Below, one piece after another: positions 5,301 through 62,360 of a stretch of 64,000 nt of DNA. The stretch lies in contig JAFCMP010000001.1 of assembly GCA_017506865.1 (NCBI GenBank), positions 2,387,432 to 2,451,431 on the forward strand, given 5' to 3'. Under the pieces are notes generated by a model, which was not told the origin of the DNA, did no database searches, and worked only from the letters and a program-made list of their open reading frames with translations. This DNA is from Tribonema minus (Eukaryota; Sar; Xanthophyceae; Tribonematales; Tribonemataceae). The position numbers and the translations under genes were made by a program. Numbering within the stretch: position 1 is the stretch's first letter; the number at the start of each line of letters is the position of its first letter.

Positions 5301-8300
5301 GCCTGAAATGAGCCAGCTCTGGGTTTGCGCTGTAAACGCTGTAGCGTGTCAGTGGTCAACAGAGTGCCATGAAGCCTTGCAGCCGCAGCGCAGCAGCCGG
5401 CGCGCCGCCGCCGCCTGTTGGCACTCAGATGGCAGTGGCTCGTCGGCTCACAGCGTACCGCAGGAAAAGTGGCCCGACAGCGTGCTGCCGCCGTTGAGGA
5501 CGCGTCTTTGTGCCATTCGACAGAAGTAGGCTCACTGTAGTCACAATGCTGAAGTTGTGTGGGCAGATGGCCGTGGTGCCAGTGCACCCCCCATACCCCG
5601 GACGTTCCAGTGCGTGTGGCGCCGCTGCGTGCAGGTCAGGTCCGCCGCCGTCAAAATGTTGGCCCTCATCTTAACCCCACCTTTAACCCTAACGCTAATC
5701 TTAAACCCAGTTGACCATGCTCATGCATGGGGACATGCGTAATGCTTCATGGACCCTCATTCGTGCGCGCCATGCCGAGGGCCACGACTCGGCCACTGAC
5801 TCACTTGCGTGTTGTGCATCCAGGCCCCCGCTGTTTGCGGGCGGCGGCGGGCTTCCTGGACCCTTGTCGTGCACAGTGCGCAGATGACCGCTACTCACTG
5901 ACCTATTTTAAGCGCGTCGCGTCAACGACATCTGATTGGTCCTCGAGTCACTCAAACACTCACTCGTTCACTCGTGTGCCGCGTCGGGTGCGCATGCGTG
6001 AGCGCGGACCTGAGCGCAGCAACGCCATCTGCTCGGCCCTTGATTTTTTCACATACTCACCTACTCACTCACTCACGCATGCATTGCATCCATCAGGTGC
6101 GCATGCGCGAGGCGCTGGACCTGGAGCGCGGCAACATCATCGAGGACATGATCAAGCTCAACCCGCTGTACCAGCCGCCGGTGGACTACGTGAAGCGCAA
6201 GCCCTCGCGCAAGCTATACATACCCATCCGCGAGTACCCCGGCTACAACTTCATCGGCCTCATCATCGGGCCGCGCGGGAACACGCAGAAGCGCATGGAG
6301 CGCGAGAGGTGAGCTGAGCGCTGCCGCTGCCGCCGCTGCTGCCGTGTGACTCGCCTTCTGACGCCAACTTCAACCCTGAAGCCAGTCACGCGTCGCTGAC
6401 CTGTGCGACGCACCTCTCGAAACCTCCCGCTGCTCATCTGTGCAGCGGCTGCAGGATTGCCATCCGCGGGCGCGGCAGCACTGACACTGCGTGCTGCGTA
6501 TCTTTGAGCCCCGTGACGCGGTCTATGTATGCCACCCCCCCCCCCTGCCCATGCGTCGTTCGTGATGGTTTGCCCCCCCGCTACCTCTCCTCTCAGTGCC
6601 ATGCACGCGTCACTCACCCGTATCATGCGCTGCTAGATGCTGTATTGCTCAACGGCGCAGCATTACTGCCGTCGGCAGCGTGAAACCACCATGTATACTG
6701 CACACATCAGCAAGCCTAGCCCTAACCCTGACCCTGCATTGTGCGCCCCCATGCCCATCGATGGCGTTTTGATAACGCGTGCGACTCGCCTTCTGACACT
6801 AACTCTGAACCCTGCTGCCAGTCACGCGTCGCCGACCTGTGACATGCACTTGTCAAAACCTGGCACTACTTCTCTCTGCAGCGGCTGCAAGATTGCCATT
6901 CGTGGGCGCGGCAGCGTGAAGGAGGGCGCGCGCCGCACGGGCGTCAAGTCGGTGGACGAGGAGGACGACCTGCACGTGTACGTGCAGGGCGACACGGAGG
7001 AGCAGGTGGAGAAGGCCGCCGCAGAGGTGAGCGCAAAGTTCATACTTCAAGAAATATGCACATTTATTTCCAAGAAGTGTAAACATGTACTTTTTTTTCG
7101 AATTATAGGCGACAGACGAGCAGGACAATCTGCACGTGTACGTGCAGGGCGACACGGAGGAGCAGGTGGAGAAGGCTGCTGCAGAGGTGAGCGCAACATT
7201 GTATACTTCGAAGTACACATTTGCTTTTAAGAAGTGTAAGAATGTACTCTGAGTGATAGGCAGTGGACGAGCAGGACAATCTGCACGTGTACGTGCAGGG
7301 CGACACGGAGGAGCTGGTGGAGAAGGCCGCCGCAGAGGTGAGCGCGGACTGTGTGTATGTATATTCTATACTTTTGAAAGTATACGAGTGTACTTTGAGG
7401 TTGGTCCTACATCATAGTCGGCGGATGAGGGAGGAGAATGACCTGCTTATGTCAGTACAGGGCGATACGGAGACGCAGGTGGACAAGGTCGCCGCGGAGG
7501 CAAAGTGGTACTCCTTGTATCCATACCCTAAAGCTGTACTTTGACTTGCTTCAAGTACTTGCAGGCATCGTGTAGACCGTACGCAAAGCGCCTTCATAGG
7601 CAAGTACACTCCAGTTGAAGTGCCCGGGAAGGGCACGTCACGTCCGCATGTTGCCACCGCTTGGCGTTATAGATGCGCGTAGGTCACTGCCTCGCGCTCC
7701 AAGGGGCAGCGACAGAAGTGCGGAGTTCACACCAGAAAGCTCTGCACTGCGCTGCCAAACATGTACCCGCAGCCGAAGCATGCGCTACCCTCTGCGCACC
7801 ACCGACCGCTGACTCTCAGACTCCGCCCGCATGAGTCATGAATCAGCCAAGGGCTGCAGCGCCCACCCCCTGACCGCTTCCCAACTTCACATGAATTGCC
7901 TCAACACGCATCGATGACCCCCCCTCCCCCCCCCCACCGCTGCCACCACGTCACATTGCCAACCCCAACTTTGCTGACTCCCCCCTCCCCCCCCCCCAAC
8001 CTACCTCTTGTGAAATCCAGGTGGCGGGCCTGCTGCGCCCCGTAGACGACGACCTGAACGAGCACAAGCAGAAGCAGCTGCGCGAGCTCGCGCTGATCAA
8101 CGGCACGCTGCGCGACGACGAGTTCTGCCACATCTGCGGCGAGAAGGGCCACCGCCAGTATGAGGTACGTATGCTTGTGCGTGCACGAATTTGCAAGTTC
8201 TTGGAATTGTTTTTGCATCATGGGCGCCAATGAGTTTTGCCACATCTGCGACGAGAAGGGGCACCGCCAGTATGAGGAAAGTGCGTATGCCTGCACATAT

Positions 8301-11300
8301 CTGGTGCGGTTTCCATCACGTGTTGCCATTAAGCATCACTGTGACGACTGTAAAACGCTACAACTGCAGCGAGAAAGGGGCACTGCCAATATGAGGTAGT
8401 TCTACGTATGTATGCACTACACGCAGTGTTGGTGTTTCCGTGATCATGTTTTTTTACCATGAGTATCGACACGTCCCGTCACATCAGCGCTGAGACAAGG
8501 GCACCGCCACGTCGAAGTACAAACGGATTATATGCCGTGCAGATGTAGTGATTCCGTGTTCCATGTTCGTTGACCGTGAGTATGGACCGGTTCTGTCGCA
8601 TGATTGCTGGGAAGGAGCGCTGCCAGTAGGAGATACGTATATTCACGCAAACCAGTACCGTTACAGCACGAATTCGCCCCCATGCGGCGACCAATGTGCA
8701 TATTTCTTGTATGATGATCAACATTGGCCCTTTGAGGTCAACTGCAGACATTTGGAATCCATGATCTAATCTCTCCTCCTCGCTTCCCCTCCCCCCCCAT
8801 TCCCCCCCCCGCTCCCCATCTTTCAAACAGTGCCCCAAGCGCGCCGCGCAGAGCCGCCCCGCCGTGGAGGTGCGCTGCGCCATCTGCGGCGACACGAGCC
8901 ACCCCACGCGCGACTGCAGGCAGGCGCCGGGTGGCGGCGGCGGCGCCGCGGACCCCACCAAGGCAGCAGCGCTCGACAACGTAAGTTCAAGTTTGAAGTA
9001 GTTCGAAGTATGAGATTCACACAGGGTTCCTGGCTAAACCTCCGCCCTTGCGCCTCGAGGGTTTAGCCCCGCCGTTGCGCCCCCTTGCACCCCAGGGGGG
9101 TGCTATAAGGGTGAGGCGCATGCGGCTAAACTCCCTGCTGTATATAGCCATATATAGCCATATCTACAACAAATCATCGCTCGGCGACACACATGCATCA
9201 CAGAGAGGACCCGCTGCAGCCTCGGAACCCCATTCGCGGCTTTCTTTTGCACCCGAAAGGTCGCGAACCAATAGGATTAGGGTTAGGGCTAGGGTTAGGC
9301 CAGAGTAAGAGTTGGGGTTAGGGGTAGTGCACTGTTGGAGCTTTCCTGGCATGATTGCATGGTAAAACCTAGCAAGTACCCAATGATGACCAAGGCGCTT
9401 TGAAGCCCCGTATTTGCTTGAGCTACAGCGTTCTGCGCGCCAAAGGGTTGCGCCGTTGCGCCCCAGGGCTAAACTAGGTTTAGCCTCAGGGGGGAGGCTA
9501 AACATGTTGCGCCCACCCCCTTATAGTTTAACCGGGAATTCTGGTTTCACAATCAGCCTTTGGGTATTAAACTTTACTTTGTTCAAGTATTTACACTAAA
9601 AAAAGTTGTAGTTTGGCAGGCGCCGCGGACCCCACCAAGGCAGCAGCGCTCGACAACGAAAGTACTACTTGAAGTAGCCTGAAGTATGAGTGTCACGATT
9701 AGGCTTTCAATACTTAAAGGAGTACATGCTTCAGGACGCTGAAATGTGTATAAGCAGTACAGTTGTAGTTTGGTAGGCGCTGCGGACCCCACTAAGGCAG
9801 CAGCGCTCGACAACGTGATTACTAGTCTGGAGTATGAGTTGACAAATAAATAGGCCTTAAGTTGTAGAAGTATACTGTAACACGTTGAAGTACAAACAGT
9901 ACAGTTGTTATTTGATAGGTGCCGTAGACCGTAGCGCTCGGCAACGCACATGCCAGTCTGCAGCAAACGGGGTGTTCGGTATTGTACTTCAGTACAAGTG
10001 CAGGTGAAGGCGAGGCATGTCAAGCTTGGGCGCCACAGACCCCTCCAAGGCTGCAGCGCTCGGCAATGTGAGTAGTGACTTTGAACTGAAGTTGGGTTAA
10101 CACAAAAATACCATAGATGCAGGTTCATCGGTATGCGCTGTTGCTGCGGAGCCCACCAAGTTTTCAGCGATCAAGAGTGCAACTATTGTTTGTCATGACT
10201 GCTATCACGTATTGCAGGTACGGATGGTTCGTGTGCAGTGCGACCTGACACGCGCCGCTCCTACGCTTCATGCGCTTTCAGCAGCAGATGCATCGTTGGT
10301 ATAGAACCTTGTATTTCACCCCTCCATAAACGCACTGCTTCTAACTGTGCCCCCCCCCCCCCCCCCCCCGCCCCCCTCCCCCCTTCGCCCCCCCCATTCA
10401 TGTTCAACAGGAGTACCTCAACTTCATGGCGGAGCTCGGCGACCCCAACGCCGCCGCTCAGGCCGCGCATCAGCAGGCCAGCGGCCCGCGCCCCTCGCAG
10501 CAGCAGCAGCAGGCGGCGACGCTGTTCGGCGGCAAGGGCGGCGGCGGCGCTGCGCCGCTGCAGCAGCAGCTGGCCGAGCTGCAGGCGCGCGCGACGCAGC
10601 AGAACGCCGCCGCGGCGGCGGCGGGCGCGAAGCCCTCGCGCCACATCGTGTACACGCCGCCGACGTCCGCCGCCGCCGCCGCCGCCACGTCCGCGGCGCC
10701 GGCGGCGGCGCCCAGGGTCAAGCACATCGTATACGAGCCGCCCAAGGCGCGCGCGCAGATGCCGCCGCCGCAGCCGCAGCAGCAGCAGCAGCGGTCGCTG
10801 TCGTACGGCGCGCCGCCGCCGATGCCCCAGCCGCCGCGCCCGTACATGTCGCCGCCGCCGTTCATCCCGCCGCCGCACCTCGCGCCCGCCCCCGCGCCCT
10901 CGCCCTACGGCGCGTACCCCGGGGCCGCGCCCAGCGCGCCCCCCCCGCTGCCCAAGGCCCCCGGCGCCGCCGGCGGCAAGCCGCCGCAGTTTGCGCCGCC
11001 CCCCGCCGGCGCGCCGCCCGGCGGCTACGGCGCGCCGCCGCTGCCGCCGCAGCAGCACACGCAGCCGCCGCTGCCGGGACAGCCGCCGCTGCCCGGCGGC
11101 GGCGGCGCGCCCGCGGTGCAGTACGTGGATCAGTTCGGTAACCCGCTAAACCCGGCGTTCGCCGCGCAGTTCGCACCCGTGCAGTACGTCGACCAGTTCG
11201 GCAACCCCGTCACGGCGTTTGGCACGCCGCTGCCGCCGCCGTCGAGCGGCGCCGGCGGCGGCGGCGCTGGCGCGACTCCCTACTATGGGGCGCCGCCGCC

Positions 11301-15012: not shown

Positions 15013-15236
15013 TCATTATGTGCCCTCCTGTACCGATCCCAGCCATCGCCTTGAGAGCTCCACCTCTGCTAGTCCTTCGTTGGCTGCCTGCTTTCGGTAG
15101 TAGTGGTTCGAGCTATGTAGAATATAACGCAACTTCACTTTCAAAAGAAGAATAAACGCAAGATGTGTGTTTTTGTATTGGTGATTATTACTTGCATAGC
15201 GCGCTGACAAGACTGCGGCTAGCTGCGAGCATCGCG

Positions 15237-22335: not shown

Positions 22336-25300
22336 CTACGACGTCGGTGCATCTTCAACTTCAACTTGAACTGCATCAACCTCAGACTCTGTCAGCCGTG
22401 AGCTGCGGTGGAGGATACCAAACATGGACGTCTGCTGTACTGGGCCATCTTGAGCTCTGACACTGGTGAGCACCAGAATGGCTTGGCCCAATGCCAGGAC
22501 GAGGAGCAGCACGTTGAGCGCTATGAGCAGGTTGCCGATGATAGCCTCGCTCTGCTCATCCGTGTAGCTGACTTGCATGAGCAGTGACAGGAAGTAAGTG
22601 ACAAAGATGATGCTGTAACCTGTGGGGCCAGGGCCAGGCAGGGACGACAGGCAGTGGAGGAGCATCAGTCAGCAGTGCAATGACATTGGTGAGGCGCTAT
22701 GAGCAGGTTGCCGATGTGTAGCCGACTTGCAAGAGCAGTGATAAGAATAACTGTCAAAAAGACGCGGCAGCCTGTGCGGTCGACGGTCAGGGCCAGGCAG
22801 GGAAGACATGCAATGGAGGAGCATCAGTCAGCATTTCAATGACATCGGTGAGACGTACTACCTACATTCTGTATCACTGGCAGGCAAGATCCGCCACCTG
22901 CAGTCAAACACAAATTGATAATACTATACTTCGAAGTACTATAGTATTGATGCTATTAGCTGCTTCATCGTTGGCTCACCGAGTTTGTACAGCCACATGT
23001 CGGACCTCTCCCCGTGCGGGCGCACGCTCTCGTAAACGAACCCCGTAAAGAAGGCAAAGACGCACGCGACGGCGCTCTGCCCGGGCGTTCCAGGCATGAT
23101 GAAGACGAGCAAGCCTGTCAGCATCAGCCGGCGCAGACACTCCACCACTTCCCAGTGGAACGCGTGGGCTCTGTACGGCTCCCACAGGAAGGAAGATGCC
23201 TTGGCGAGCTCCGACGTCCGCCCGTGGTCTCTGTGCGCCCCGAAGCAGCGCCACAGCGTGCTCATGTAGAGGGCGGGGATGCCGATGGGGTAGATGAGGA
23301 CCATGACGCCGGCGAAGATGCGATACGCTGTGTGCTCCGGCGTGTAGCACTCTATGGAGTAGTCCGCGCGCAAGTAGCTCTTGCTGATGTACATCAGCTC
23401 GTCACATGCGAAGGTCTGGAATACCGTCACCGAGACCCCGGCAAAGATGAGAAAGGTGAATGCCAGCGCCGCGTTTCGATCTTTCTCTACTAGGCGCTGC
23501 AGAAGGGCATGCGGCTGCCGCGGCGTGCGCTCCGACCGTGCTCGAGCGATCAAGTACAGGCGGGGGACGAATATGAGGGCGATAACCGCTAGCGGCGTCA
23601 GCGTGGCCATGAGCAGCCTGCCGTAGAAGTCGACCTTCATTGCGCAGCCAGGCGACGTGACCCACCGCAGGTCCAGCGAGACGAGGCTCATGCTGTTGAG
23701 GAATTCCGTGTACGACAGCGGCAAACTGGCACCCGTGATGCTCACGTACTGCGTCAGCACCTGCAGCACGACGATGGGCACCCGAAGCCGCCTCATCAGC
23801 TCCAACACGATGCGAGCTACCCTGGACCGGATGTCTGTGGGCTTTGCACCGCCAGCATTCTCCGAGGCGCCGCCCACAGCCCTCACCAGGACCCATAATA
23901 GGAACACGGCCGTGACGGCGACTACTGCCATGACAACGAAGGCAATAGCGACGGCTGTATTGGTGCACTCGACGCAGCGGTACCCGACCAGCGCGCCGTA
24001 GTTGTCGCTGCAGACCGCACAATCTGCAAGCGGCAAAAGCAAACAGCAGCGTCAGTTCACCGTCGTTGGGCACCAGCGATGTGGACGTTCTCAAGCAGCG
24101 TCAGGTCGCCGACGTCGGGCACCAGCGATGCGGACATTCACTGTCAACAGTTTCATTATCTGATTCAGCGTTTAACTTCACTCAATGGCTTACATGGTCC
24201 CTTGTAGCCAGCAGCGCAGTATTCGTCGACCGAGGCAGCAGCTGCGCCGCCACTACACGCAGCACTGTTCCAACACTGCCGAACGACTTCCTGGGTCAAT
24301 GTCTCCCTCCAAAATCCGTTGTCGAGAGTAAGCGTGGTGCTGGTCACTCCAACTCCAGTGCATACGAGCCCTGTAGTGTCACACCCCTTGCACGTAAAAG
24401 TGCCTTCCGCGGGGGCTGCTCCGATGTACTGACTGTCACTGCAGCACTCCCTGCATATAGCACCAGCACAATAATTGCCAGTGGTGGTTAGAAAGCTGGC
24501 ATGCAAGCAGTAGTTGCGACTCACTGACAGGCTGCTGCAGCAGTTTATCTGAACTCCGAGTCTGGACTACCGTCAGCTGAATGCCATGAGGAGTCGACTT
24601 GAAGACACCAGGCGTCACATGAGTCAAAGTGTGCTGCTGTTTGTCTCACATTCTAAGCAGAGGCGTGCACTTGAGCGCTTTCTACTTCACATACCATCCA
24701 CTGTCGTAGCCGGTAGACACATCCACGCAGGAAGCTCCAACGCCGGAGTTCTGCCCGCCGGCATAGCAGCAGTTGGCGCTGTTGTTGGTGAAGATGGTTG
24801 CGCTGTCGACCTTCGCAAAGAGAGCACTGCCAGTACCCTCCTGTAGGAACGCCCCCCCGGCAGTGTTTTCGGCAATGTTACCGACAAACTGGCATCCCCT
24901 GAAACTGATCATGATGGCAGTGGTCTCCAGTATCGGCAAGGTGATGGCCACCGCCCCTCCTCGAGGACTGGCATTGGCACGGAATGTACAGTCCTCCACA
25001 GTCACTGTGGCAGATGCGTCTAAAACAAAGGCTCCTCCTAGCTGCCCTGCATTTTTCACAGACCAGCATATATGTAGTAAAGAGGCATATAAAAAATGAG
25101 TAAGATACTATGTGCTAGCGTAACATGCCTTCTGGCAGAAGCGAGAGCCCACATGTGCTTCAAGACATCACCATATAATAGTACTGCTTCTGGTGCAAAC
25201 ATCGAACAAGGAACCTCAGTTGAACTGCAGTGATCACAAACTTTGCTTGATGGTTTCATGGTGCGAAGGGGGCGGCTGCCGCCCTTTTTGGCAGCAGCAT

Positions 25301-26909: not shown

Positions 26910-26955
<46 letters not shown>

Positions 26956-43200: not shown

Positions 43201-46200
43201 GAGCATCCCAGGCTCCTTGTGCTTGAGCTCCTTGGGGAATGCCTCATCGTCAAACTGCACGAAGCACGGCACAAACATGATGGTGGTGACTCTCCAGTTC
43301 GGTACGGTAGGATGCTGCTGAGGAAAAAATACCCCTTTGCTGGCATTTCGCGCGCTGCGGGAACACGGCGGCGCGCATGCGTAGACTATGTAGCATTCTG
43401 CCAAATACGGGTAGAGGGGGCATGTACGCGCAGCGAGTCGCGCTTCTCAGATCACGCCTACGCCTCCTGCATGTCTCAACTTCAAGTGGGCAGAACGTCA
43501 CAGTCTCCACACGCGTGCGTATCAACCGCCGACCCAGCATCTGCTGCGTCGAAAAATTACTTTGCTTTCCTAGATGTATATCATCTACTGAATCTTGTAT
43601 TACAGTCGGCGACGATCGCCGCTGTTCGGACAGGCATTAAGCGTCGGACCGCAGATGCTGATGGAGGACAGCGCATTTCTCAGCTCAGAATGAGGCGGAG
43701 TCCTGCTGCTGTGTCTGTTTATGCTGGATTGTATTCCGATTGTCAACTGTAGCAGCAGATATGTTGGCCAGAAAAACAAGAGTTCAAACGTGTCCACTTG
43801 CATCCCTTGATTATTCATGCCCGTCAAAAAGTTGGTCAGCTACGCACTCACACTCGCAAAGCCAACAAAAACTGCAACATACGCGGGTCGCTTCAGACGC
43901 AAAACCGCGCTACCACAGTCACACAAGAAACTTCATCCTTGAAGTAGCAAGGCGCGTCAGCGCTCACCTTGCCGCCGTAGATGGACTCCCCGCCGGTGCC
44001 GGTGCCGTGCGTGAAGTCGCCGCCCTGGAGCATGAACTGTTGACAGCAAGCAGCACGGCAGTGCTCAGCATGCTGCACTTTCAAGCACCACAAGCATGTG
44101 CTTCACTCTGAAGCATCGCAATCATGAACTGCGGTGACAGCGAGCAACACAGCAGTGCTCAGCACGCTGCCTTTCAAGCACCACACGAGCATGGACTGCG
44201 GTGGCATCGACCAGCGCAGCGGGCACACGCGTATGGTTCACTTCTAAGGCATCGCGAGCATGAACTGCGGTGACAGCGAGCAGCACGGCAGCACTCATGA
44301 CGAAAGCGCTCGCAAGCGTATGCTTCACTCCTAAGCACCACAAGGAGCTTGGACTGCGTGACTGGCGCAGCGTGCACATGCGTGTGCTTCACTTTTTGAG
44401 CATTGCGAGCATGAACTGCGGTGACAGCGAGCGACGTGACAACGTGCGCTTCACTTCTCAGCACCAGCGAATGGCAGCAAACTACATTCTGGCGTGTGCA
44501 AAAAAAAATTTTATATATACATACAAAATATGGCTGCAGGCTCACAATACAACAGCAAATGCCGGCTTTCCCGGAGCAGAGTCCACACCGCCTAACTCTA
44601 ACTCTACACCTGAACCTCACCCTAACCCTCGATGGACTGAAGCCACCCCCGCGCACTTACAGAGCGCGATGCCGCAGCGAGCTACCAGTGCACAAGCCAG
44701 CAGCTTGCCGCCCGCACGCCATCGTTGCAGGATCTGACTGGCGAGACAAGCTTGCGCGGGCCAACGGAAGCGCTGCCGTACTGACCTAGCATGCAAAATG
44801 GCTGTAAGCCGCGGTACGCTGAGCCAAACCTACCCATATCGCGCTGACAGTGTGCGACAAACCCAGCGAGCACCTGACGCGTGCACCAGCCTGCCCCACG
44901 CGAGCCCTCAATGAACACAATGCCTGGAATCAGGTGTGACAGTCACACAGTCTGATGCGACAAGCGTGCAAGCCGATGGAAGTGCCGCCGTACCTGGGGG
45001 ATGATGCGGTGGAAGGACGACCCCTGGGAGCCGGAAACGACAGAGAGTACAGACGCGGCAAGGACGCGCATGGAAGTCGTCAGTAATGCCAACTGAGCAC
45101 TGCTGCTAAGGCATCCTAACACTTTTGAACGGGTGTGCCTGTATATCCGCTACGCAGCGGGCGGCCTGTATACGATGTTACAGGCACCTGCTGAACCACA
45201 CGTGTGACGCCTCGGGGGTGGAACTGCGGCGATGCATGCGGGGCATGGCAGCTCCCAGCGGCAGTGCACCGAAGCTGACTCCAGGATCCACGATGATGCC
45301 ACCGGCAATGACCGGTGGTATAACCATGGACCGTCATTGTGACAAGCCGATGCTTTACGCAGCGTGTAAACGATGATTGCTACATTTCGGTCGCGCCCGG
45401 TGTTGGTCGCAAGCTACGACTGCAGGAGGAAAGTCAGCTCACTACTTAATTTATATACAAATGCACGTTTGAAAAGGTATATTGACGGTGCTATTCGCTG
45501 AGTGCCTTGTGATGCCGAGCCTACAAAAATGAGACGCTCGTGGATCTCAAGTCCAAGTCATCGCTTGCCGGGCGCTAGGCGATGAGTCCGGTTCACGTGT
45601 GTAATATGGGCACCCGATGCCTCTCAGAGGCCCGCCATATGCGGGATGAGACTACCTAGGCGCAGTTCGAGACGAGCCCGCTCTGCGGTAGTTCTGACAA
45701 GTCATGTCTCAGCACCCGCCTGTATCATTGCTCAGCACAAGTACACACGGACGCCTGAGCACCAAGCACATAGCTAGCGTGTACTTCGCCAAGAGAGGCC
45801 GGTTGGCAGACGTGATGTGGCACACACATTTTGTCCACTTTCGCGTACGCGCTTGTTATAAGCCATCAGCCTTTCCAGTCTCGCAAGTGCGATACGCCTG
45901 TTTTCGATGCCCTAATTAGGAAGCACACTCGCGCACCTTGTAGGTCAGAGGCTTGTGGTAGACCTTGCCCACGCCCTTCTCCCCCGTGCACAGCGCGCGG
46001 AAGTTCTCCACCGTCTTGGGTACCGCCTCCCCGTACAGCCCCATCACGATGCGCCCGCCCGGCTTGCCGTCGATCTCCATGTCGAAGAACACCATCTTGG
46101 TGACCTGGCGGCGGCGGTGTGGGGCGCGCGCGTGGCAGCAGCAGGTAGGTATGTACGTGTGAAGCGACAAGACCGTGCGTGCGCACACAATGTGGTGCCG

Positions 46201-49482: not shown

Positions 49483-52455
49483 ATGGCACTCAGGCGTGCC
49501 GTCCTCTGCGCGATGATGGCGCGACTGGCCTTATCGTTCAGCCTCAGAGCTGGTGGCGGCGTGCAGGTGGTGCGACAGCTGAGCACCATACCCTCACGGC
49601 GACAACCGCAGTGTATCAACTCCCTATTGCAACCATCACAGCGACTTCTGCTGCGGGCGGGACCGCTTCATATGAGTGATCGAGGTGAGTGGAAGAGCGC
49701 CCGGCTCAGAGGAAGGTTATGCACCATAAACGACAGCCAGGTGTGTCTGCCGTGTATAGAGAATCAAGATGAAGCCCGGTTTGACGATGCCAATGACTGG
49801 AACATGACAATTGCAAAGAGGCCCCTTGTGTATTCATGCTGACCAATTTTGACAACTTTAAACAGGCCCAGCCTGTATATCAATGCTGATAACTGTGCAA
49901 TGCGTTCTGGACTGTACCACAAATCGCGCATTGCGAGCTGCAGGCGCGCGCACTACGATTACTAAAGGACAGCGGCAGCACATGACACTTTGCGCTAAGA
50001 GAAAAGCGGTCCTTGACTTAAGCAAGTGTGAGGTGTTGAAGGCGCTCCTGTCGTCAGCAGTCATGCTTCCGCGTGCAACATCAGTACCTGAAGCCACGCA
50101 AGTCTGCTGCTCACCAGCCTCGCCGGTGCTGGTCTACTGCACCCCGCAGCAATGGCGTCTGGCGCTGCACAGGTACACATTCCGGAGGACCGGTTGCAAA
50201 TATCATTCACCAGGAGCAGCGGCGCTGGCGGTCAAAATGTTAACAAGGCAAGTGTCTATGCAGCGGCGCCTACTTGGCTACTTCACCATGCCCACGTTCA
50301 CAGTCGGGCAATGAGTGTGAGTTGCCGTGGCATCAGCAATACTCATAACACTGGTGGTGTTGAAAGCGTTGACATGGGCAGGCAGCATGGCCGTCATCGC
50401 AATAGTTGTGGCAACTGTCACCCTAGCCACGAAAGGAATCCGCAGCACCTGATGAGCTTTGCCAGTCATCAGCGAGACTCATGCAGCACAGAGCATTGCA
50501 ATGGGCAGCAGCGCTTCCTGAACCAATGCTTGTCATTGAACACCAGAAACCAAGAGCCGTTCTTGCTGTCTTTTGCACACTGCAAGCACCATGACCGCCT
50601 TTGCGGCCTCCCACGTGTCACGAGGGATGGGGTGGCAGCAGCAGAGAGCGCGGCTTATGTTGAAGTGCATGGTCTCACGAGCTTTGACCGCAGCTGCTTT
50701 ATTTGTGATCTATCAAGGTACCTGCTTGCAGGACCCACTCAGTGCAGCGGCATGCCCCCCCCCCCCCCTCCCCCCACACACACAGACATGGGAATCACAT
50801 TTCAAAGAAGCTGAGCAAGTGCCGTGCGTCGTTCGTCATTGCTCGTGCGCGCATGCAGGTGAACACAAAGGTAGAGGTTCGATTCGTGGTGGACGAAGCG
50901 GACTGGCTGGAGTACGACGTCAGGCAGCGGCTCAAGGAGTATCAGGTATGCGCACAAGGCACACGAGGGTGACTGCAAGGCAGCAAAGACCGTGTAGAAG
51001 TGTGCGTTGGCAATGGTGTGCGTTGGGGCATGCGGCGCACCTGTGTGGCCTCATGCTGCGGGTCCACCACGAGCTCCGTGTTTGTGAGAGGCTGATGTGA
51101 AGGTGACGCGCTCACCGAAGCGGCCGGGAGCTTATGTGAGCCTAAGTAGTCGCAGGGTCAGGGGCACGGCTAGGTTTAGGGTTAGGGTCACTACGTCCCG
51201 TTGTGTCGCAGACTGCTGTGCGGTGCACGTGCTTCATTGTGCGTTCATGCTGTCACTACGCGTACACGATGAAGCCACAGCACGGCGCTGAGTCGCCTGA
51301 TGTCATCCGTTGTGCATACATCGAGGGACGCTGCGATAATTGCGGCTGTAGGCTGTCTCGACGGCATTGACAGGAGCAGCAGGCGCCTGCGTCACTACGC
51401 TGTGCTGGCGGCGCTGACACTCTCTGCCCGGCGGCTGTGCTTCTGCGCAGGCGGGACGCGTGAACAAGACGGGCGAGCTCATTGTGACATGTCAGGTGAG
51501 CGGCGCAGCCACATACCTCAAAGCTGTATGCTCATGGATACAATCGTACGTGTGGTAATACATTCATGAACATGTCATATACAATCATGCAGTGTTGCAA
51601 GCGCCTACAAATCTGCATGACACATGCAGCTGACGCCCACCGTCGCGGGCAAGGGATCACGAGCCAGCGCAGAGCGGCTGCTGCACAACATCAACGAGTG
51701 CTGCTGAGCGTCAGCAAGTCATGCACCGCGGAGTCGGCTCTGCTCATCGCAAGCAGGCCCCACCACAATCGTGGAGCTGTACACTGTGTGCCTACTACGT
51801 AGTATTCCAGGCAAATGAAGTATTGCAACATGACACATCTTGCTCCGCGCTGTCATACGACGCTCCCCCCCACACGCACGCAGGAGCACTGCACGCAGAT
51901 GGTGAACCGCATAGGGGCGATCGCGAAGCTGCGCAAGATGGTCGCCAATGCACTGCTTGCACATGTGCTCATCACACCTCGCATCCGGCCCCCGTAAAGA
52001 CTGTAGATCGTTTTGTCCTCATCTTGACCACATGGTGTACATGCGTTGGCGCTACCCGCACACGCGCAGGAGCACCGCCCGCAGAAGTCAAGCTGCATGG
52101 AGGCAATCGCGAAGCTGCGCGAGATGGTCGCGGACGCGCTGCTGGCACACGTGCTAATCAAAGCTAGCGTCTGGACTTGAAGAACGTATGAATTGTTTTG
52201 TGCTCAATCCCTTATCTTGACCAAGTACACGCGTCTGCGCTCCCCGCACGCGCGCAGGAGCACCGCACGCAGAAGGCGAACCGCATGGAGGCGATCGGGA
52301 AGCTGCGCGAGATGATCGCTGACGCGCTGCTAGCGCCCAAGGAGCGCGCCATGCGCGTGGGCATCGGCGAGGCCACCAAGCGCCAGCGCCGCGACGACAA
52401 GCGCTTCCGCAGCAAGGTCAAGGCGACGCGCGGGCGCGTCCGCTCCGACGATTGA
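49483..52455 (+). CDS. ICT1: ICT1-like peptidyl-tRNA hydrolase / release-factor-domain protein, organelle-targeted
   Basis: Five exons: 49483-49684, 50150-50247, 50859-50945, 51451-51495, 52258-52455. They total 630 nt (209 aa). The first ~67 residues are Arg/Ser/Leu-rich with few acidic residues (MALRRAVLCAMMARLALSFS), a likely organelle-targeting peptide. The core is HIPEDRLQISFTRSSGAGGQ with the catalytic GGQ, then NVNK|VNTKVEVRFVVDE, RVNKTGELIVTCQ and HRTQKANRMEAIGKLREMI. A basic C-terminal tail follows (KRQRRDDKRFRSK). Family members release stalled peptides from organellar ribosomes. Intron 2 has a GC donor (AACAAG|gcaagt). Two extra in-frame terminal exons lie before the last exon (see repeats). 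Confidence 0.9.
51884..52245 (+). repeat. Two tandem duplicates of the ICT1 terminal exon
   Basis: Copy a starts at 51884 after cacgcacgcag and reads EHCTQMVNRIGAIAKLRKMV, ending at its own TAA after ITPRIRPP. Copy b starts at 52070 after cacgcgcag and reads EHRPQKSSCMEAIAKLREMV, ending at its own TGA after KASVWT. The canonical exon starts at 52258. Spacing is 186 and 188 nt. All three share the acceptor and the same phase, so each could end the protein. Copies a and b lack the basic tail. Confidence 0.8.
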
Positions 52456-53543: not shown

Positions 53544-56500
53544 ATGCTGCAGCCTAAGTCACTGAAGCCCAGGTCCATCGCGGCTTTGTATGGTGGCGTG
53601 CAGAGCTCCAGCAGCGCCCTTGGCTCGTCATTCAACCTGGGAAGTAGCGTCGGCAGCAGCAGCAATCAGGGCACACCACCTGCATCCGAAAGGCGACAAC
53701 TGCCAGATGCTGAGCACCATGACCTGCAGAGCTGCGGCTCGCCCGCGTCCATAGGCTCGACAGGAGCCTACGCCTTCAGGTATACTTGCACCACTGCTCA
53801 CTGTATGGTGTTGTGCGGTATGCTGGAACAGACGTGGCGACAAACATGTCACTTGGACTTGTGCATGCTCAGCTATGATGCTGCTGTGCTTGCGGCCTGC
53901 AGCAGCGATGACGGCGCGCTATCTCCTGGCGCTGGCGATGGCGACGGCGTGCTTATGACAGATGAGGAGGGCAGCTTGTCACCTGATGGCAGGTACGCAA
54001 AGTGCTTGCTAAGCTTCGCACGGTCCAGCACATCACCTTTATGAATATATGTACATACATCAATCACCTGCGACTGTACAAGGACGTCGTTGTCAGTGCA
54101 CGTGTTGTATGTGAGGCAGCGTACTCAGCACTTCTGAGATATCACCTGTAGCTCAGCGCCTGACACATGGCATCATTGCTCTCAATCAGCCGTGGCGATC
54201 ACGACTCGGTTTAGCACCTGCCGGCCTCAGAGGCTTACTGTCCATGCCCATATGCGGGATCGAAACAGTATCAGTATTGGCAATTACTGGCGCTCGGCAT
54301 AGAGTACCACCAATGTGTAGCCAAAAACCGCAGCAGGCGTCGTTGCCATGTCTAGAGGCGTACGCACTGGCAATGCCTGAGATGCATGCGCGGCGCACCA
54401 CAGCTGGCCTGCTTCCCTATTCCCTGCTGCAGCTCTCTTGACATGTGACTTCCTGCCATCGAAATCTCATGCCTGCAGCGCATCGCAAGGTCCCTCCCGA
54501 TCTATGTAACGACACACTAGATGTGTTCTCAGCTGCTCAAGCGCAGCACATGCACTACCGGTGGCATGTGCGCGCTGCAGCAGTGCTCACCCTGTCCATT
54601 CCTGATGACGCAGACGGAGGAGCGCCGGCAGCCGCGCGGCGCGCCGCCCGTCGTCCGCATCCGCATCGCCCCCATCGCCGCCGCGGCGCGCGAGCGCTGC
54701 CGCGCAGCAGCAGCAGCAGCAGGAGGGCGGCGCATTAGGTGGCAAGTCGCATGCACGGAACAGCAGCAGCGGCAGCTTCGTTCCCGCTCTGCAGCAGCGC
54801 TCTGAGTCGCCGGAGGCGGCGCCAGCAGCGGCAACGGCGTCAGTGGCAGCGGCGGCGGCAGCGGCGGCCGTGGGCGCGCACAGCAGGAGCCCGCTGCGCA
54901 GCACGCGGCAACGGCGCGGACGCGAATGGGAGGCCGCTGCGCAGAGCCCTGGAGGCAGAGCTGGCGCTGTTGGTGGTCCCGACGCTGTCAGCGACGGCGC
55001 TGGCGCAGAGGCGCGCAGCGGTGCGGCGGAGGGCGCGATCGGCGCAGCGCAGCGCTCAGTGCCCAGCCCTAACCCTAGTAACGGCAGCCAAGGGGTGAGG
55101 GGGGCGGGGGGGGAGGGGGGCAGCGGCGCGGATGCGGCAGCAGGGGGGTTGCACGTGGAGACAGCGGGGGAGGGGGGAGGGGGGGTGAGGGGGGGCAATG
55201 GGGATGAGCCGGGGAGCCCACTCGCGGCGACGGTGCTGCCGCATCCAACCGTCACGTGCAAGGTGCTGGTGGTGGGCAACGCCAAGTGCGGCAAGACGAG
55301 GTGCGTCCATAGGTTGAAGTTTGATGGTGAAGTATATGGTAGCCAGCGAGAAGCGCTGTGCAGCTGCAGTGCGGACTGCGGCAGGACGAGGTGCATCAAG
55401 TTGAAGTTTGCTGTTGAAGGGGGGCAGAAGGCGGGTGCAGAAGGAGATGTCGCGGCGTCTATCGGCGGCGCCAGTGGTTGAGGTTTGGTGTTGGCGCGTA
55501 CAAATTCGCACTTCGGGAGCAGTGCAGATTGCGAGCGCGCATTGGTAGTAGCGATGCGGCTACATCCATCGGCCACGCGTGCAGGGCGACGCCGCTGCCA
55601 CCTGCTGCTTCACCCAGCAGCGATTTGCGGTGTGGTGATGGGACAGTGTACATGCGTCCGAGCAGGCGTTCCGTATCAACGTCGCGATGCGCGTTAGCGC
55701 GACGAAGTGGCGCGGCTGCCGTGTTGTAGCTGCAGTCGCCTTTGCGAGTTGCACAACAGAGGCAGCGTCGCTTGGGAGGTGCTTGGGGTGCCATTGCTTA
55801 TGGTTTGGTTAACTGTTTTGAAGCTTTCGGCCCTCCTGCCTTGGGGGTGTGGTTGTGGTTGTGATCTTGTTGGGGAAGCGGTGAAATCAAGTGCTCAGGT
55901 TGACAGTTTCGCGATGCCAGATGCGTTGAGTAAGGCATGCGGGGAGTGGGGTGAAGACGCGTGCGCTTTGCACCTGTGCATAGTATCACAATGCATGTAC
56001 CTGCATATGTACCGCAGCAGGGATCGCCGTGCATCTGTTTACAGGTTGACGCCTCATATCTCGCCGTGAGCTATGGACCCCAGCAGCTTCGTGACATGGT
56101 GGCAGAGGAGTGCATGGCGCAACCAACATGCCGCCACGCCGGCGCGATGCTCAGACGAACCTCAAACTTCAACGAGAAGTTGCCGGGCAATGCCCGAAAC
56201 CATGCATGCGGCACGGCACATGGAGATTTTAACAGCAGTGCATGTACTTCCAGGTAGCATGACACGCGCGTGCCGCCGCTGCCGTCGCTGACGTTATCCC
56301 CCCCCCCCCCCCCCCCTTCCCCCTCCCCCTTTCCCCCCCATATCTCTTCCCGCAGCATCATCCAGCGTTACGTCCACGGGCGGTTCACGAGCGAGTACAC
56401 CACGACCGTGGGGGCGGACTACTTGAAGAAGGACGTGCTGGCGCCAGACGGAACGTGCGTGCGGCTTCAGGTGGGTGACTCGCCCTTGCTGCCTACTTCA

Positions 56501-59500
56501 AGAAATGCGCGTGCGGCTGCAGGTGGGGTGACTCTCCTTTGTTGCCTACTTGAAGAAGGTGGCTGACTCTCCCTTGCTGCCTACTTGATGAAGGACGTAA
56601 TGGGCGCCCGACGGCACGTGTGTGCGGCTGCAGGTGGGTGACTCTCTCTTGTTGCCTACTTCAAGAAGGTGGGTGACTCTCCCTTGCTGCCTACTTCAAG
56701 AGGGACGTACGTGCGTGCGGCTGCAGGTCAGAGACTCTCACTCTTTCCGCGCGCGTGCTGCCGATTCTGCGAGCACGATTCACCATGTAAGCATTTGAGA
56801 GTCATTTGATGTCGCTACTCTCAGCGCCGCGCGCGCTGCGATCGTGCTGGAAGGGTTGGGCTGGCGCGCAGCTGTAACTCCCAAGCCTAAGTGTGTAACC
56901 CAAGATGCAGCCCTACCCGCGCTCGGAGTGCCGTACATCAACCGGCTGGAGCCGAGCGTCAGTCACTTCCTTCGCAGAGAGCACAGCCCCCCATGCTGAC
57001 ATCCTGTCCAATGTGCAATCAGTCCTCATCGCTCAGCTCCTCGCCGAACTGCGCTGAGCACTGCTGCACCGTACAATTGCGTGCCCCCCGCCGCAGCTGT
57101 GGGACATTGCGGGACAGGACCGTTTCGCGCGGCTGACGCGCGCGTACTTCCGCCGCGCCAGGGCCGCTGTCGTCGTGTGCGACATCACGCGCGAGGTGCG
57201 TGGCTTGAAGTTATATGTCTGGCTTGAAGTTCTCGCGCTCGTACATCCATATGTGTCGCTGCGTGGCACTTATCGCTTGAAGTTACCCAGAGCAGCCATC
57301 ATCGTGTACGACATCACGCGCGAGGTGTGTGGCTTGAAGTTCTCTGTCCGGTTTGAAGTTCTCGCACTCGTACATCATGTGTCGCGAGGCGCGTGGCGCG
57401 CACCGCTTGAAGTTACCTAGGGCCACCGTCGTCGTGTGCGACATCACGAGCGAGGTGCGTGGCTTGAAGTTATCTCTCTGGCTTGAGGTTTTCATGCTTG
57501 TGCATCATCTGTTGCGAGGTGCGCGGCGCACACCGCTTGAAGTTACCCAGGGCCGCCGTCGTCGTGTGCGACATATTGCGCGAGATGCGTGGCGTGCGCG
57601 CCGCGGTCTGGCTTGAAGTTATTGTGCTTGAACTTGAACTCTATATACCCACATGGTGTGTGGCGCGCGTCGCAATCCGACTTGCGTGAAGTTGACGTGC
57701 TTGTACAGATACAATGTGAACCAGCAGCGACATGACGGGCGAGGTGCGCGTTGCGGCCTAGCTTGCGATGATCATACCATATGAAGGGTAAACTTCAAGT
57801 ATCTCAGATAAAAAAAATGTCACTTTGAAATATGTCTGCTGTGTTAGTCGAGGGGCTGTCAAGCCCCTGGCAGGCGCTGCACGCGCACGATATGCCATGC
57901 AAGAGCCTGCGGCTCCCACGTCAGGTACACATTGCAGCCCATAAACAGCATACGGGATGTTGTACGAACGCTGTTTGTGGTGGTCGAAGGTGATCAAGGT
58001 TCGGCAGACGCAGCGCGCTATGTGCAGGCAAGCGGCAGCACTCCACCCTTCAGTTACGGCCGGGTCTAGCAGCTACGGCGAGGTGCAGCATGACTAGGAT
58101 TAGGGTTAGCGTCAAGGCTAGGGCAGCGGGCCCTGGAACAGGTGTGCTGCATGCGCGTTGCCACGGGACCTGTATGAGACAGCGCTGGTCGCAATTTATC
58201 ACGTCTTGTCTCCCTTCACGTGGCTTCTAGAAGCCAACTATTTGCCGCTGCCTCAGCGCCGCCGCGGGGCACCGTAGGTGCGAGAGCAGCGCCAGCAACG
58301 ACGGCGCTAGGCAGACAGCACATGTCTGTCGCGTTTTTCCCTCTCTTGGCACCCTGTGGCGTCTGGTCCCCCTATGATGCGTCGCAGCCGTTGCAGTGCA
58401 CTTCACTTCTTGATCTTCGGGGTTGCCAAAGGGCGCATGTACGAGCGGTGTCAGTGTCGGCCGCGACTTCTCACGTGTCTCCGTTCTTGTGGCGTCTGAA
58501 AACAAACTATGTGTCACTGCCTCGGCGCCGCCGCAGGGCACATTTTTTGTCGCGTTTCTCTCTCCACTCTTGCACCCTTTGGCATCTGGTAACCTATTGT
58601 GCGTCGCTGCCGTTGCAGGGCACGTACGAAGCGGTGTCGCGCTAGTTTCGTCACGTTCTTCTCTCTCGACGCCCTGTGGCATCTAAAACCCTACCGCGTA
58701 TATGCTGCTGCCGTTGCAGGGCACATGCTTTGTCACATTTCTTCTTGCTCGGCACCCTGTGGATTCTAGAAACCAACTATTTGTCGCCGTTGCAGGGCAC
58801 GTACGAGGCGGTGTCGCGCTGGAAGGACGAGCTCGACGTGTGGTGCACCACCGAGGGGTGCAAAATACCCGTCTTCCTCATCGCCAACAAGGTGAGCGAG
58901 AGCGGACACTGGTATGCAGCGCTGTGCCGGCGCGATGTAGCGCTGACATGTACCCGTCTGTTCTCATTGCCAGCAAGGTGAGCGCGTACTGGTGTGAAGT
59001 TGCGCTGTGCTGGCGCGTTATAGCGCTGCCGGGCGCTCAATGAAGGTGGGAGGTTTTTACATCAGGATCTGCACCGTATTTGTGTTGCTGTGAGCACTGC
59101 GAAGGCCGCATTGGCTGCGACTGTCTGCAGTTCTGGGCTCAGTGTATTCTTTAGAGTGCTTCAAGTACAAGATTGATAATATGCGCGCCTTCACACTGGG
59201 GCCCTGTGCTGCGACCGCACCAGTGTGCATGCCGCCGTTGCTGCAAACAAAAGGTTTGACTTGCCTACGGCTGTGCGCGCATCGTTGTGTTGGCCACTAT
59301 GGCCCGCCACGGTGCAGACTTCTTCACCAGCACTTGAAGTTGCGTGCTACATCGCTCACATCAATTTCTGCACGGGTTGCCTGCCTCCATGCAGTGCGAC
59401 CTCCTCACGGACGCCCAGGAGTCCTTTCTCATGGGCGCCAAGATGGAGAAGACGTGCCGCGAGAAGAACTTTGAGGCATGGTACATCACCTCCGCCAAGG

Positions 59501-62360
59501 TATGTACGTATGCATGCGCTGAGCGCGCTGAGAGATAAATACTTGAAACGTATATTCTTCGAAGTATATATATATAGTGAATGGATAAGAACTTTGACGC
59601 GCGCCGGGGTGCACCCGCATGCGCTGACTAGAAATCAAGGAGAACTTTGAGGCGTGGTACATCACCTCCGCCAAGGTATGTGCGTGTGCACTGACTGCGT
59701 CGAGGAAAAATAGATGAGAACTTCAAGGTATGGTACATCATTTCGGCCAAAGCGCGTGCGCAGGCGCCGACTACGCCGCGGGTCTAAAGGAAAACTTCAT
59801 GGCGTGGCACATCGCCTCCGCCAAGGTACGAATGTACACGCTGTCTGCGCCGCCCGAAGACGGCTGAGGCAAGAATACCTCACCCTCATCCCAAAATGGT
59901 ACTACGTGGTTCACAGTTCCCGGCTGTATTTTTGAAAAATGCACAACGCGCGAACCTGCTGACCGATTTGCTTCAAAGTGCATCGTATACAGTATGTCAG
60001 TCTCTAGATGACCTGCCGATGGTGCTGGTGGATTCGATGCACGCATGACATCTGCCCCTGGAGGCATGCAAGCGCCTGCCCCCCCATTTGACATCGGTTT
60101 GTTTAGTGGCGCTCCTGCTGCCAGCACTGGCTGCCGCTCTGTCGCTGTTACGAGATGACACATTCGCATATTGCTGCTGCTTCCATGCCACAAAAGCTGC
60201 AAGGAGCTAGGCTCGCTGAGAAAAACTGACAGTGCGATGTGAGAATACCGGACAGCGTTTCAGATGCCCAGACAGCAACATACGGCAGTGCGATGGGCTG
60301 CACGTTGAAGGTCTCGCCGCGGAGTGCACGGTGGAGGCAGCGCGGCTCATCATCCGCTCGGGGGTTAGGGTGACACTTATTCAGAATTTGATGCAACTCC
60401 TCAAGTCAGATGCTTGGCGCAGGGCGCGGGCTCTACTTGAGTTGTATGGTTACACTGCCTGTGACACAACGTTTGCGGGGGCATGAGCGCCCAGAATCAG
60501 TGCCTTTACGGGGGCATGAGCGCCCAAAATCAGTGCCTTCAGCGCTGTAGACAGAGGCAGTGTAACTCAAGTAGAGCCCGCGCCCTGCGCCAAGCATTTG
60601 ACTCGAGAACTTGGACCAAATTCTCAATAAAAGTCACCCTAACCCCCGAGTGGATGATGAGCCGCGCCTCCACCGTGCACTCCGCGGCGAGACCTTTAAG
60701 GTGTAGCCTATCGTCGGCAGGCACATGTTAGGGGCTCAGCCTCTTGAACTTGTAAGGTTCAGCCACTTGAACTGTTAGGGTTCCAGTCGCTTGAGGTCTC
60801 GGCACCAGCGGCCCACGGCGTGCTTGCGCTGGCAGCCGTGGTGGACGCGTCAACAGCAGTTGAGCGCTGCTGCCCCCTTGATGCCGGCGACCAGGATCTC
60901 CTGCGCCTCGCTCCGCTGCGCGAAGGACAGCGCCGCTCCCTACTCATGCTGCTGCCACTACCTTACCGTGCAACTTCGAGAGCACGCGTGTGTGCGTTGC
61001 GTGTGCGGTTCGCGCACCTCAAGCCTGTGCCCCCAGCCCTTGGGGGGTACTAACCCTACTCAGCCCCCATGTATACCCTGCCCTGCGCGCGCCTGCCGCG
61101 CTGCACGACATGGCTTGAGAGGCAGGGCTGCGCACTGCCTCCCGCACTGTGCCGCAAGATCGCTGTGCTGATGGTCACTGCTTAGCACTGCTGACACGTC
61201 ATAATACCTCACTGTGGCTGACAAGCGCCTCTTGCTCTGAGTGTTGCTGACATTCGTGCCATTGCTCTTCTCTAGTGGCTCAAATTGTGGTGCCCAGACT
61301 GTAGAGCCTTGCGCTTTGAGCACCTCGGACACCTGTGCCTTCGCTGTCCTCTCCTTTGACTCACACTGTAGTGCCTCGGGTCTGTGCGCTTCTTTTGTGG
61401 CTCATACTGTGGTGCCTTGGGCTCTCCTCTTTTGTGGCTCATATTGTGGTGCCTCAAGCTCTGAGCACCTCTGTTGTGGCTCATGCCAAAGTGGCTCTGG
61501 CTCTGAGTGCTGCTAACACCCGTTTCATCACTCCGGCGCTGTTTCCCCACGCAGGGCGGCGACAACATTGCCACGGCCATGTCCAACCTGCTTGTCAAGG
61601 TGAGGCAGGTATCTCGGACGCTGCTCAGTGGCCACTGCATGTGCGGCACCGTGCGTACCGTATATACATGGGCATTGCTTGCGTGTGCTCAATTGCCAGC
61701 TGCGTGTGCAGAGGCATCAGCGCCGTCAGCACGAACTTCCAGCTGCACTTCTGAACTGTCACGGACTGCGGGGCCTTCCCCGATGCGAATGCAAATGCGG
61801 GGTCTACCTGCGCCTCAGCGTCTGAGCGCAGGTGCAGGCAACACCGAATGAGTTCATTCAGTGAAGGTGCTTCCTCAGAGGGTTCTGTTCGATTCGTGGT
61901 GTAGTTCTCATGTTGTGCATACTGTTTAGGCTGCCGCTGATGCCGCTGCACAGCAATGCGCTCTGCCATGTAGCAAAGCCTTCAGGGCAGCGAGACTCCC
62001 GGGTTATGCAGCTCCGCTGCCGCCTACAGAAGAGGGCGACTGCACATGGCTGCTGCTGGTGGTAGTGCTGCTGTTACATGCGCCTGCACTTCGTGCAAGA
62101 AGCAGTTGTGCGCGCGTGAAACACCTTATTTGGCCCCACCTAACTCAAGCGCTCCTGCTGGATCTACTCCTGTGCGCAATCAGGTGTTGGAGAGAGACAG
62201 CCAAGCAGCAGCAGCGGCGGCGGCGGCAGTGGCGGCGCCTGCTGCAGCAGACTCAGCACAAGCGCCAGCGTCCGGCCCCCAGGCTGCTAGTGAGCCGTTT
62301 AAACTGGACCCTAGTGTGCTCGCGCACGACCACCGGAATGGCGATAAAGGGTGCTGCTGA
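53544..62360 (+). CDS. RAB32: Rab32-like small GTPase with a long N-terminal extension
   Basis: Nine exons: 53544-53779, 53903-53992, 54614-55300, 56356-56470, 57097-57195, 58796-58891, 59395-59499, 61555-61599, 62184-62360. They total 1650 nt (549 aa), all phases compatible. Residues 1-~325 are low complexity (Ser/Gly/Ala/Gln-rich). The GTPase follows: G1 VVGNAKCGKTS, switch I YTTTVGADY, G3 LWDIAGQDRF, G4 LIANKCDLL, G5 ITSAKGGDN. WDIAGQ and the SIIQRYVHGRF/VRLQ pattern place it in the Rab32/38 group, which acts in traffic to lysosome-related organelles and mitochondrial contacts. The protein ends GDKGCC, a di-cysteine geranylgeranylation signal for membrane anchoring. The usual WDIAGQE glutamate is Asp. 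Five introns carry tandem copies of neighbouring exon edges. Confidence 0.92.
55381..55425 (+). repeat. Copy of the Rab exon-3 end (P-loop) in intron 3
   Basis: The real edge GCAAGACGAG|gtgcgtccataggttgaagtt recurs as GCAGGACGAG|gtgcatcaagttgaagttt, about 90 nt downstream. Confidence 0.6.
56506..56735 (+). repeat. Tandem copies of the Rab exon-4 end in intron 4
   Basis: The real edge encodes GTCVRLQ and is followed by gtgggtgactcgcccttgct. The block gtg(c)ggctgcag|gtgggtgactct...ttgctgcctacttcaagaag is repeated three to four times to about 56735. One unit (56600-56635) also keeps the preceding GCCCGACGGCACGTG coding part. Confidence 0.75.
57289..57590 (+). repeat. Three tandem copies of the Rab exon-5 end in intron 5
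   Basis: The real edge encodes AAVVVCDITRE|gtgcgtggcttgaagtt. Copies end at about 57325 (IIVYDITRE, gtgtgt), 57452 (VVVCDITSE, gtgcgt) and 57585 (VVVCDILRE, donor lost: atgcgt). The period is about 128-130 nt. Unlike the SF1 copies, the nearest AG in these units is out of phase with the coding frame. Confidence 0.8.
58255..58790 (+). repeat. Tandem copies of the Rab exon-6 start upstream of the real exon
   Basis: Units of about 90-130 nt combine a ttctctctc..gcaccctgtggcatctg block with a gttgcag acceptor and the start of the exon (GGCACGTACGA). They occur near 58270, 58395, 58535, 58617 and 58713 before the true exon at 58796. The 58617 copy reads GTYEAVSR and then meets TAG. Confidence 0.7.
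58962..58978 (+). repeat. Copy of the Rab exon-6 end (LIANK) in intron 6
   Basis: TCATCGCCAACAAG|gtgagcgag recurs as TCATTGCCAGCAAG|gtgagcgcg. Following intron sequence (actggt..gcgctgtgc.ggcgcg) is also repeated. Confidence 0.65.
59584..59825 (+). repeat. Tandem copies of the Rab exon-7 end (ITSAK) in intron 7
   Basis: After the real edge (EKNFEAWYITSAK, 59499), copies lie at 59640-59675 (ENFEAWYITSAK|gtatgt), about 59716-59751 (degenerate, GC after the exon edge) and 59790-59825 (ENFMAWHIASAK|gtacga). A weak fragment is at 59584. The first and last are preceded by AG in phase 0 and are 36 nt long, so they could act as cassette exons repeating the G5 loop. Confidence 0.8.
60279..60727. repeat. 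Large inverted repeat (foldback) in Rab intron 7
   Basis: Arms at about 60279-60463 and 60552-60727 are near-identical in inverted orientation (ggtctcgccgcggagtgcac versus gtgcactccgcggcgagacc; gcgcgggctctacttgagtt versus aactcaagtagagcccgcgc). The ~90-nt spacer contains a direct repeat (gggggcatgagcgcccaraa). It may be a foldback/MITE-like element or a source of hairpin RNA. No coding content is recognised. Confidence 0.8.
61255..61510. repeat. Imperfect ~50-60-nt tandem repeat in Rab intron 7
   Basis: Five to six units centred on (t)gtggctcatactgtggtgcc followed by ctctgagcac-like sequence. It lies immediately upstream of the exon at 61555. Confidence 0.6.

Follow-up and report, generated by a model that had tools for sequence, protein, structure and literature searches.

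Tandem arrays of exon-edge copies in the introns of the xanthophyte Tribonema minus

We analyzed a window of 64,000 nucleotides of DNA from Tribonema minus (contig JAFCMP010000001.1, forward-strand positions 2,387,432 to 2,451,431). The window contains genes for SF1 and Rab32, both named from database relatives, a cyclophilin gene, and a gene for an ICT1-like protein with an RF-1 domain. On the minus strand, between 22300 and 38600, reading frames resemble one long membrane-protein gene, two tested pieces of which matched no Pfam family. Several older direct duplications, approximately 0.9 to 1.2 kb apart, lie in this gene (27291/28439, 27784/28974 and 35923/36856). A further tandem duplication (47574-47678 and 47772-47875, 75% identity), with no known exon edge, is located just 3' of a minus-strand serine-arginine-rich reading frame, and short tandem repeats occupy 61263-61484, in a region without an identified gene.

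Comparison of the window with itself, without low-complexity masking, produced 45 direct as opposed to 6 inverted pairs (at least 40 bits, no more than 500 bases apart). An earlier note on this DNA had described exon edges duplicated in tandem, together with their splice sites, inside the adjoining introns of several unrelated genes. This was confirmed: direct self-copies were found in the adjoining intron at 15 splice junctions of five genes (Table 1). The introns that the note numbered 5, 6, and 7 in SF1, which follow exons 3, 4, and 5 in the present model, all carry arrays. The note's count of up to six copies was too high for the window, where the largest array has five units including the exon (Rab exon 3); elsewhere in the genome, a TCP1 junction has seven copies.

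Table 1. Splice junctions in the window with direct self-copies in the adjoining intron. Copies that span or touch a junction are listed at a threshold of 28 bits; some are weak.
Feature	Position	Strand	Details
SF1 exon 2 start, copy (acceptor side)	5984..6029	+	Exon begins 6097; 83% identity, 43 bits
SF1 intron end, acceptor and exon 3 start, copy	6343..6479	+	True unit 6778-6915, exon 3 begins 6882; 138 aligned columns, 83% identity
SF1 exon 3 end and donor, three copies	6952..7500	+	Exon ends 7026; copies 7115-7239, 7263-7345, 7431-7500
SF1 exon 4 end and donor (8164)	8109..8398	+	Copies 8221-8296, 8357-8398; third 8611-8640 at 28 bits
SF1 exon 5 end and donor (8980)	8942..10073	+	Copies 9619-9696, 9776-9834, 10029-10073
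Membrane-protein gene, acceptor-type duplication	22562..22855	-	Exon starts about 22618; copy 22716-22833; absent from the earlier note
Cyclophilin last exon (exon 8) acceptor	40366..40758	-	Exon begins 40389; upstream copy 40488-40566, plus another that has decayed further
Cyclophilin exon 4 acceptor (44036)	44028..44435	-	Intron-end and acceptor units repeated at 44123-44185, 44256-44297 and further
ICT1/RF-1 last exon acceptor	51867..52334	+	Exon begins 52258; upstream copies 51868-51960, 52017-52146; period 188; RF-1 domain
Rab32 exon 1 donor (55300), one copy	55287..55419	+	Self-comparison
Rab32 exon 2 donor (56470), three copies	56419..56742	+	Self-comparison
Rab32 exon 3 donor (57195), four copies	57158..57748	+	Period about 130
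Rab32 exon 4 acceptor (58796)	58527..58820	+	Copies 58572-58643, 58656-58724; more repeats from 58187
Rab32 exon 4 donor (58891), one copy	58866..59028	+	Self-comparison
Rab32 exon 5 donor (59499), three copies	59462..59836	+	Self-comparison

The exon models of SF1, Rab32, cyclophilin, and ICT1 were built by hand. The end of SF1 exon 1 and the start of SF1 exon 6 are placed one base early, the placed end of ICT1 exon 4 lacks a GT, and one cyclophilin intron, where a small exon is missing, was excluded; the junction tests tolerate 9 to 12 nt. The 18 modelled introns of the window hold 12 array clusters, of which 11 span a junction, as opposed to 2.4 expected. The remaining cluster, at the cyclophilin exon 4 acceptor, extends 9 nt into the exon. 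Since the window had been picked by the earlier reader, an independent sample was needed.

We searched the T. minus assembly (158 Mb in 554 contigs) with the Pfam profiles for Ras, TCP1, proteasome, and kinesin. Sixty-seven introns were inferred between profile-contiguous exons, with splice sites picked by score, phase, and continuity; the five inferred TCP1-eta junctions match database protein P0001 by inspection. The Ras and TCP1 loci comprise the best 30 of 80 and the best 30 of 56 matches, respectively, plus L064 to L067, of which L065, L066, and L067 were chosen because repeats were visible in the match tables. For proteasome and kinesin, compact stretches were picked by size (11 from a table of 45 matches and 7 from one of 132), and some repeats were visible there as well. 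A conservative subset omits the loci where repeats had been noticed in the match tables (13 of the 67 introns). Clusters that merge several duplications were counted once. Two nuclear stretches containing stops, G000:C334:714136-714324 (L032) and C112:516888-517037 (L033), resemble the plastid RuBisCO large-subunit gene and probably represent nuclear insertions of plastid DNA.

Tandem arrays were present in 33 of the 67 introns and spanned a junction in 22, making up about 24% of total intron length. As the earlier note had proposed for the genome as a whole, they occur in Ras, TCP1, proteasome, and kinesin genes alike. In 263 kb including the window, 268 direct pairs were found as opposed to 3 inverted ones (at least 45 bits, no more than 700 bp apart), and the direct pairs cover 14.7% of the bases. 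A copy in the edge's own intron was found for 29 of 134 exon edges (15/78 in Ras and TCP1, 14/56 in proteasome and kinesin); in three further cases, the copy fails to reach within 12 nt of the edge. Controls gave 5/134 for exon interiors and 1/134 for the minus strand, and none of 492 unrelated exon edges matched an intron. In the conservative subset, 17 of 108 edges had an own-intron copy. The TCP1-eta gene has arrays within one intron and none at its junctions. In the window, copies and exon differ by 5 to 28%, which makes assembly artefacts, raised in the earlier note as a possible source, unlikely.

Twenty-five of the 39 arrays in the independent set span a junction, as opposed to 8.4 under random placement in the present introns; 5 of the others touch an exon piece and 9 are internal to the intron. 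Thus, the enrichment at exon boundaries on which the earlier note had staked its claim was present in introns other than those it had seen. Donor and acceptor edges were hit about equally (11 and 14 arrays). When arrays were detected from intron sequence alone, 21 of 32 held an exon-edge copy, with 7.7 expected, or 9.3 after correction for intron length before duplication. This count of 21/32 was unchanged after exclusion of three introns with weak splice scores. The corresponding count in the conservative subset was 11 of 20, with 3.6 and 5.4 expected (p = 1e-4 and 0.004).

An alternative length correction applied to all clusters raised the expectation to 14.8 to 16.9 of 39 (p = 2e-4 and 0.003). 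With the same correction, Ras and TCP1 alone gave 10 observed arrays as opposed to 6.7 to 9.1 expected, which is not significant (p = 0.07 and 0.42). With a threshold of 80 bits, a junction was spanned by 9 of 12 arrays in these two families, with 4.7 to 5.2 expected. We conclude that the junction preference is real and amounts to 1.5 to 3 fold, its size depending on how long introns were at the time of duplication.

The shortest period within clusters ranged from 70 to 213 bp (5 to 95%), with a median of 126 bp. Junction-spanning copies contain a median of 47 to 48 nt of exon-derived sequence, and their exon-side ends fall mostly 35 to 66 nt inside the exon. Local alignments extend a median of 39 nt into the intron at donors and 57 nt at acceptors. 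Whole-unit alignments showed units of different age: some tandem steps are recent, as for units 1 and 2 at the C77 donor, and in other, older units nothing but the core of the junction can still be recognised. The decay of similarity along arrays that the earlier note had reported was borne out: identity fell with distance from the exon (Spearman rho = -0.63 across 21 arrays with several copies, 5 of which come from the window), a value reached in 0 of 2,000 within-array permutations. The nearest copy was the most similar one in just 12 of these 21 arrays, with 8.2 expected by chance.

These observations are probably best explained by the growth of introns through repeated local tandem duplications, each of about 70 to 210 bp, which cross junctions about 1.5 to 3 times as often as random placement would. 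Selection would preserve the functional exon edge, so that each new copy, born at the functional junction, would come to adjoin that edge from inside the intron. Older copies would then sit farther off and decay without constraint. An array would thus resemble a conveyor belt running from the exon edge into the intron. The junction excess would stem from a mutational preference, for example breaks or template switches near exon borders, rather than from selection or from a past in which introns were much shorter. We propose more tentatively, and at somewhat less than even likelihood, that duplication is aimed at junctions, perhaps through a tie to transcription or splicing, that it is ongoing and has been the chief contributor to recent intron growth, and that it leaves near-identical decoy splice sites behind. 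If so, the splicing machinery must bypass decoys that are nearly identical to the real sites.

A link to splicing may be unnecessary if breaks are simply more frequent inside GC-rich exons. Duplications internal to exons would be purged and those reaching from exon into intron would survive; a higher break rate combined with such selective loss would give an identical picture. In line with this, the GC content was 63 to 65% in exon tails and heads as opposed to 53 to 55% in intron heads and middles (60% in intron tails), and the exon-side ends of copies lie well within the exon, as described above. We regard this account as the less likely one, with a real minority chance of being correct.

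If introns were only about 150 to 200 nt long at the time of most duplications, any 130-bp duplication touching the intron had to cross a junction. Uniform placement would then predict 20.5 (150 nt) or 17.3 (200 nt) of the 32 intron-detected arrays to hold an exon edge, close to the 21 observed. The arrays do lengthen introns, as the earlier note had suggested. However, array-bearing introns have a median length of 938 nt, and subtraction of the array-added length leaves 564 nt, similar to the 592 nt of the 34 array-free introns; at such lengths, only the 9.3 arrays given above are expected. Older arrays that are no longer detectable could hide a shorter past. Short ancestral introns thus lower the junction excess and do not abolish it, and we consider them unlikely to be its full explanation.

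Alternatively, duplication could be even along the gene, with exon-edge copies remaining visible for longer since the exon copy is frozen by selection. Exon-derived parts of the arrays do align better than intron-derived parts, and in simulations at a middle setting junction arrays were detected at a rate of 0.80 as opposed to 0.63. The effect is too small, however. Uniform duplication beside a conserved exon produced 25 to 28% junction arrays in simulations, and 26 to 38% when intron-derived DNA decayed 1.5 to 2.5 times faster, as opposed to the 25/39 observed. Even under the harshest setting, junction and exon-touching arrays together reached 51 to 53%, compared with 30/39 in the data. Nor did the junction preference disappear when exon sequence was left out of detection, as the intron-only counts above show; at 60 bits, the mean identity of intron-detected arrays with an exon edge (79.4%) was like that of the others (77.9%). 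Pure detection bias was therefore rejected as a sufficient cause, and even duplication appears improbable.

The earlier note had also suggested that the copies offer new cassette or terminal exons, and that splice sites are lost in many distal copies. Such losses were less common than claimed. Among the junction-alignable copies, to which the counts are restricted, GT was kept in 22/28 donor copies (20 to 23 expected from flank identity) and AG in 25/28 acceptor copies (18 to 24 expected). Moreover, 17/28 donor and 22/28 acceptor copies scored above the 10th percentile of real sites. Two copies of SF1 exon 3 (7109-7186 and 7260-7337) are open 78-nt pieces preceded by AG and followed by GT, and judging from these features could be spliced as cassette exons. 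They are the exception, however. An acceptor-like site was found at the far edge of 6/28 donor-type copies, compared with 18% of random windows, and a donor at the far edge of 0/28 acceptor-type copies, compared with 1.6%; the second splice site thus occurs at chance level. Thirteen indels in the exon-derived parts shift the frame and two do not. On the second-site and indel counts, a general role as cassette or alternative terminal exons under selection is unsupported, and we consider it very unlikely.

Codon positions bear on the same question. Differences between exons and copies fell 50, 72, and 139 times on positions 1, 2, and 3, and 53% were synonymous as opposed to 27% expected. Changes specific to single copies showed a third-position excess as well (19, 28, and 45 in 12 arrays, p = 0.004), which could reflect constraint on some copies. 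Since position 2 was not spared relative to position 1, we attribute most of the excess to silent substitutions that the exon acquired between one copy birth and the next, although all copies agreed against the exon at just one site, which is of no help to this reading. When two intronic copies were compared with each other, their exon-derived parts were 0.85 to 0.86 alike and their intron-derived parts 0.71 to 0.72. In a simple neutral simulation, the intron parts came out at about 0.80. The observed gap between exon and intron parts exceeds the simulated one and counts against full neutrality, with constraint or conversion as candidate causes of the exon-part similarity; some of the gap may come from units that contain less intron sequence than the 60 nt used in the comparison. 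Overall, the copies look like debris of intron growth rather than cassette exons, and most would be neutral.

For the exon-edge units, an origin from introner-like mobile elements or another dispersed repeat carrying junction pieces was rejected as extremely unlikely: although hexamers of the TTGAAG type are frequent close to donors and also where donor copies end on the exon side (7/28 as opposed to 8%), the SF1 exon 3 array matches the genome once, at its own locus (in a search that skips very common words), unrelated exon edges yielded no intron match, and intron ends form no inverted repeats clearly beyond shuffles. Specifically, the longest exact inverted match between intron ends was 7.92 compared with 7.77 when ends were swapped among introns, and matches of at least 10 nt occurred in 11% compared with 7%. 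As a candidate breakpoint motif, the TTGAAG type was unenriched at the ends of acceptor copies (2/28 as opposed to 6%). In 85 introns (67 from the genome sample and 18 from the window), TTGAAG and TTAGGG favour the 5' half (75/96 and 34/47), CTTCAAC and CCCTAA favour the 3' half (16/25 and 18/28), and CTTCAA is evenly spread (25/53 in the 3' half). This head-to-head arrangement would be expected if repeats were added at each end of a break, or it may simply reflect the purine-pyrimidine asymmetry that introns usually show.

The origin of intron sequence is an old question, and its source is usually invisible because introns diverge fast. In T. minus, the conserved exon edge provides a built-in reference that makes steps of growth, and their order, visible in 22 of the 67 sampled introns. 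Real donors and acceptors are also copied in these introns, often at a strength equal to that of the originals, which offers a natural test of splice-site choice among near-identical neighbours. The arrays may mislead gene prediction in this genome. Among the database matches listed, no near-identical protein was found for SF1 or Rab32 (best 73% and 70%); TCP1-eta is present at 100%.

Tandem exon duplication likewise places duplicated exon sequence next to its source, and whole exons are copied with both splice sites. In contrast, the copies in T. minus as a rule carry one edge and one site, SF1 exon 3 being the exception. Intron gain by tandem duplication is a related process, for which PMC4974935 cites Rogers 1989 and Gao and Lynch 2009. 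An intron gained from an exonic AGGT segment would equal one repeat period and be derived from the exon. This was not what we found in T. minus, where the arrays fill part of introns several periods long, lie beside the exon, and are composed of units that include intron sequence.

Introners are described as transposable elements that insert copies into many genes and add intron sequence genome-wide (PMC9860276, PNAS 2022); the main text of that paper does not mention Tribonema. Whereas introners are dispersed across many genes, the T. minus units are local, a comparison that covers exon-edge units only. Single cases of intron gain through duplication of an intron-exon piece appear in two published reports (PMC4974935, PMC2891723), the latter on Drosophila. 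In the potato case, an intron-exon structure was tandemly duplicated, an event of the type that would yield an acceptor-type copy in T. minus. The potato and Drosophila events create a new intron, however, whereas the T. minus copies lengthen an existing one and then decay.

Neither T. minus introns nor dense arrays of exon edges were described in the open-licence papers among the matches listed. Single boundary-spanning repeats are known; the density and junction preference of those in T. minus did not appear in the literature searched. A close parallel is found in human genes, where tandem repeats overlapping exon-intron boundaries are able to alter splicing (PMC2812944, Genome Biology 2009). 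These boundary tandem repeats (PMC2812944; Zhuo et al.) are variable and are reported with recently duplicated genes, 27 intron modifications, and novel introns. They are direct repeats whose unit spans the boundary, a description that fits the T. minus arrays. Unlike the human repeats, however, those of T. minus form decayed arrays, occur at about a fifth of the sampled edges, lie in conserved gene families, and leave the intron in place.
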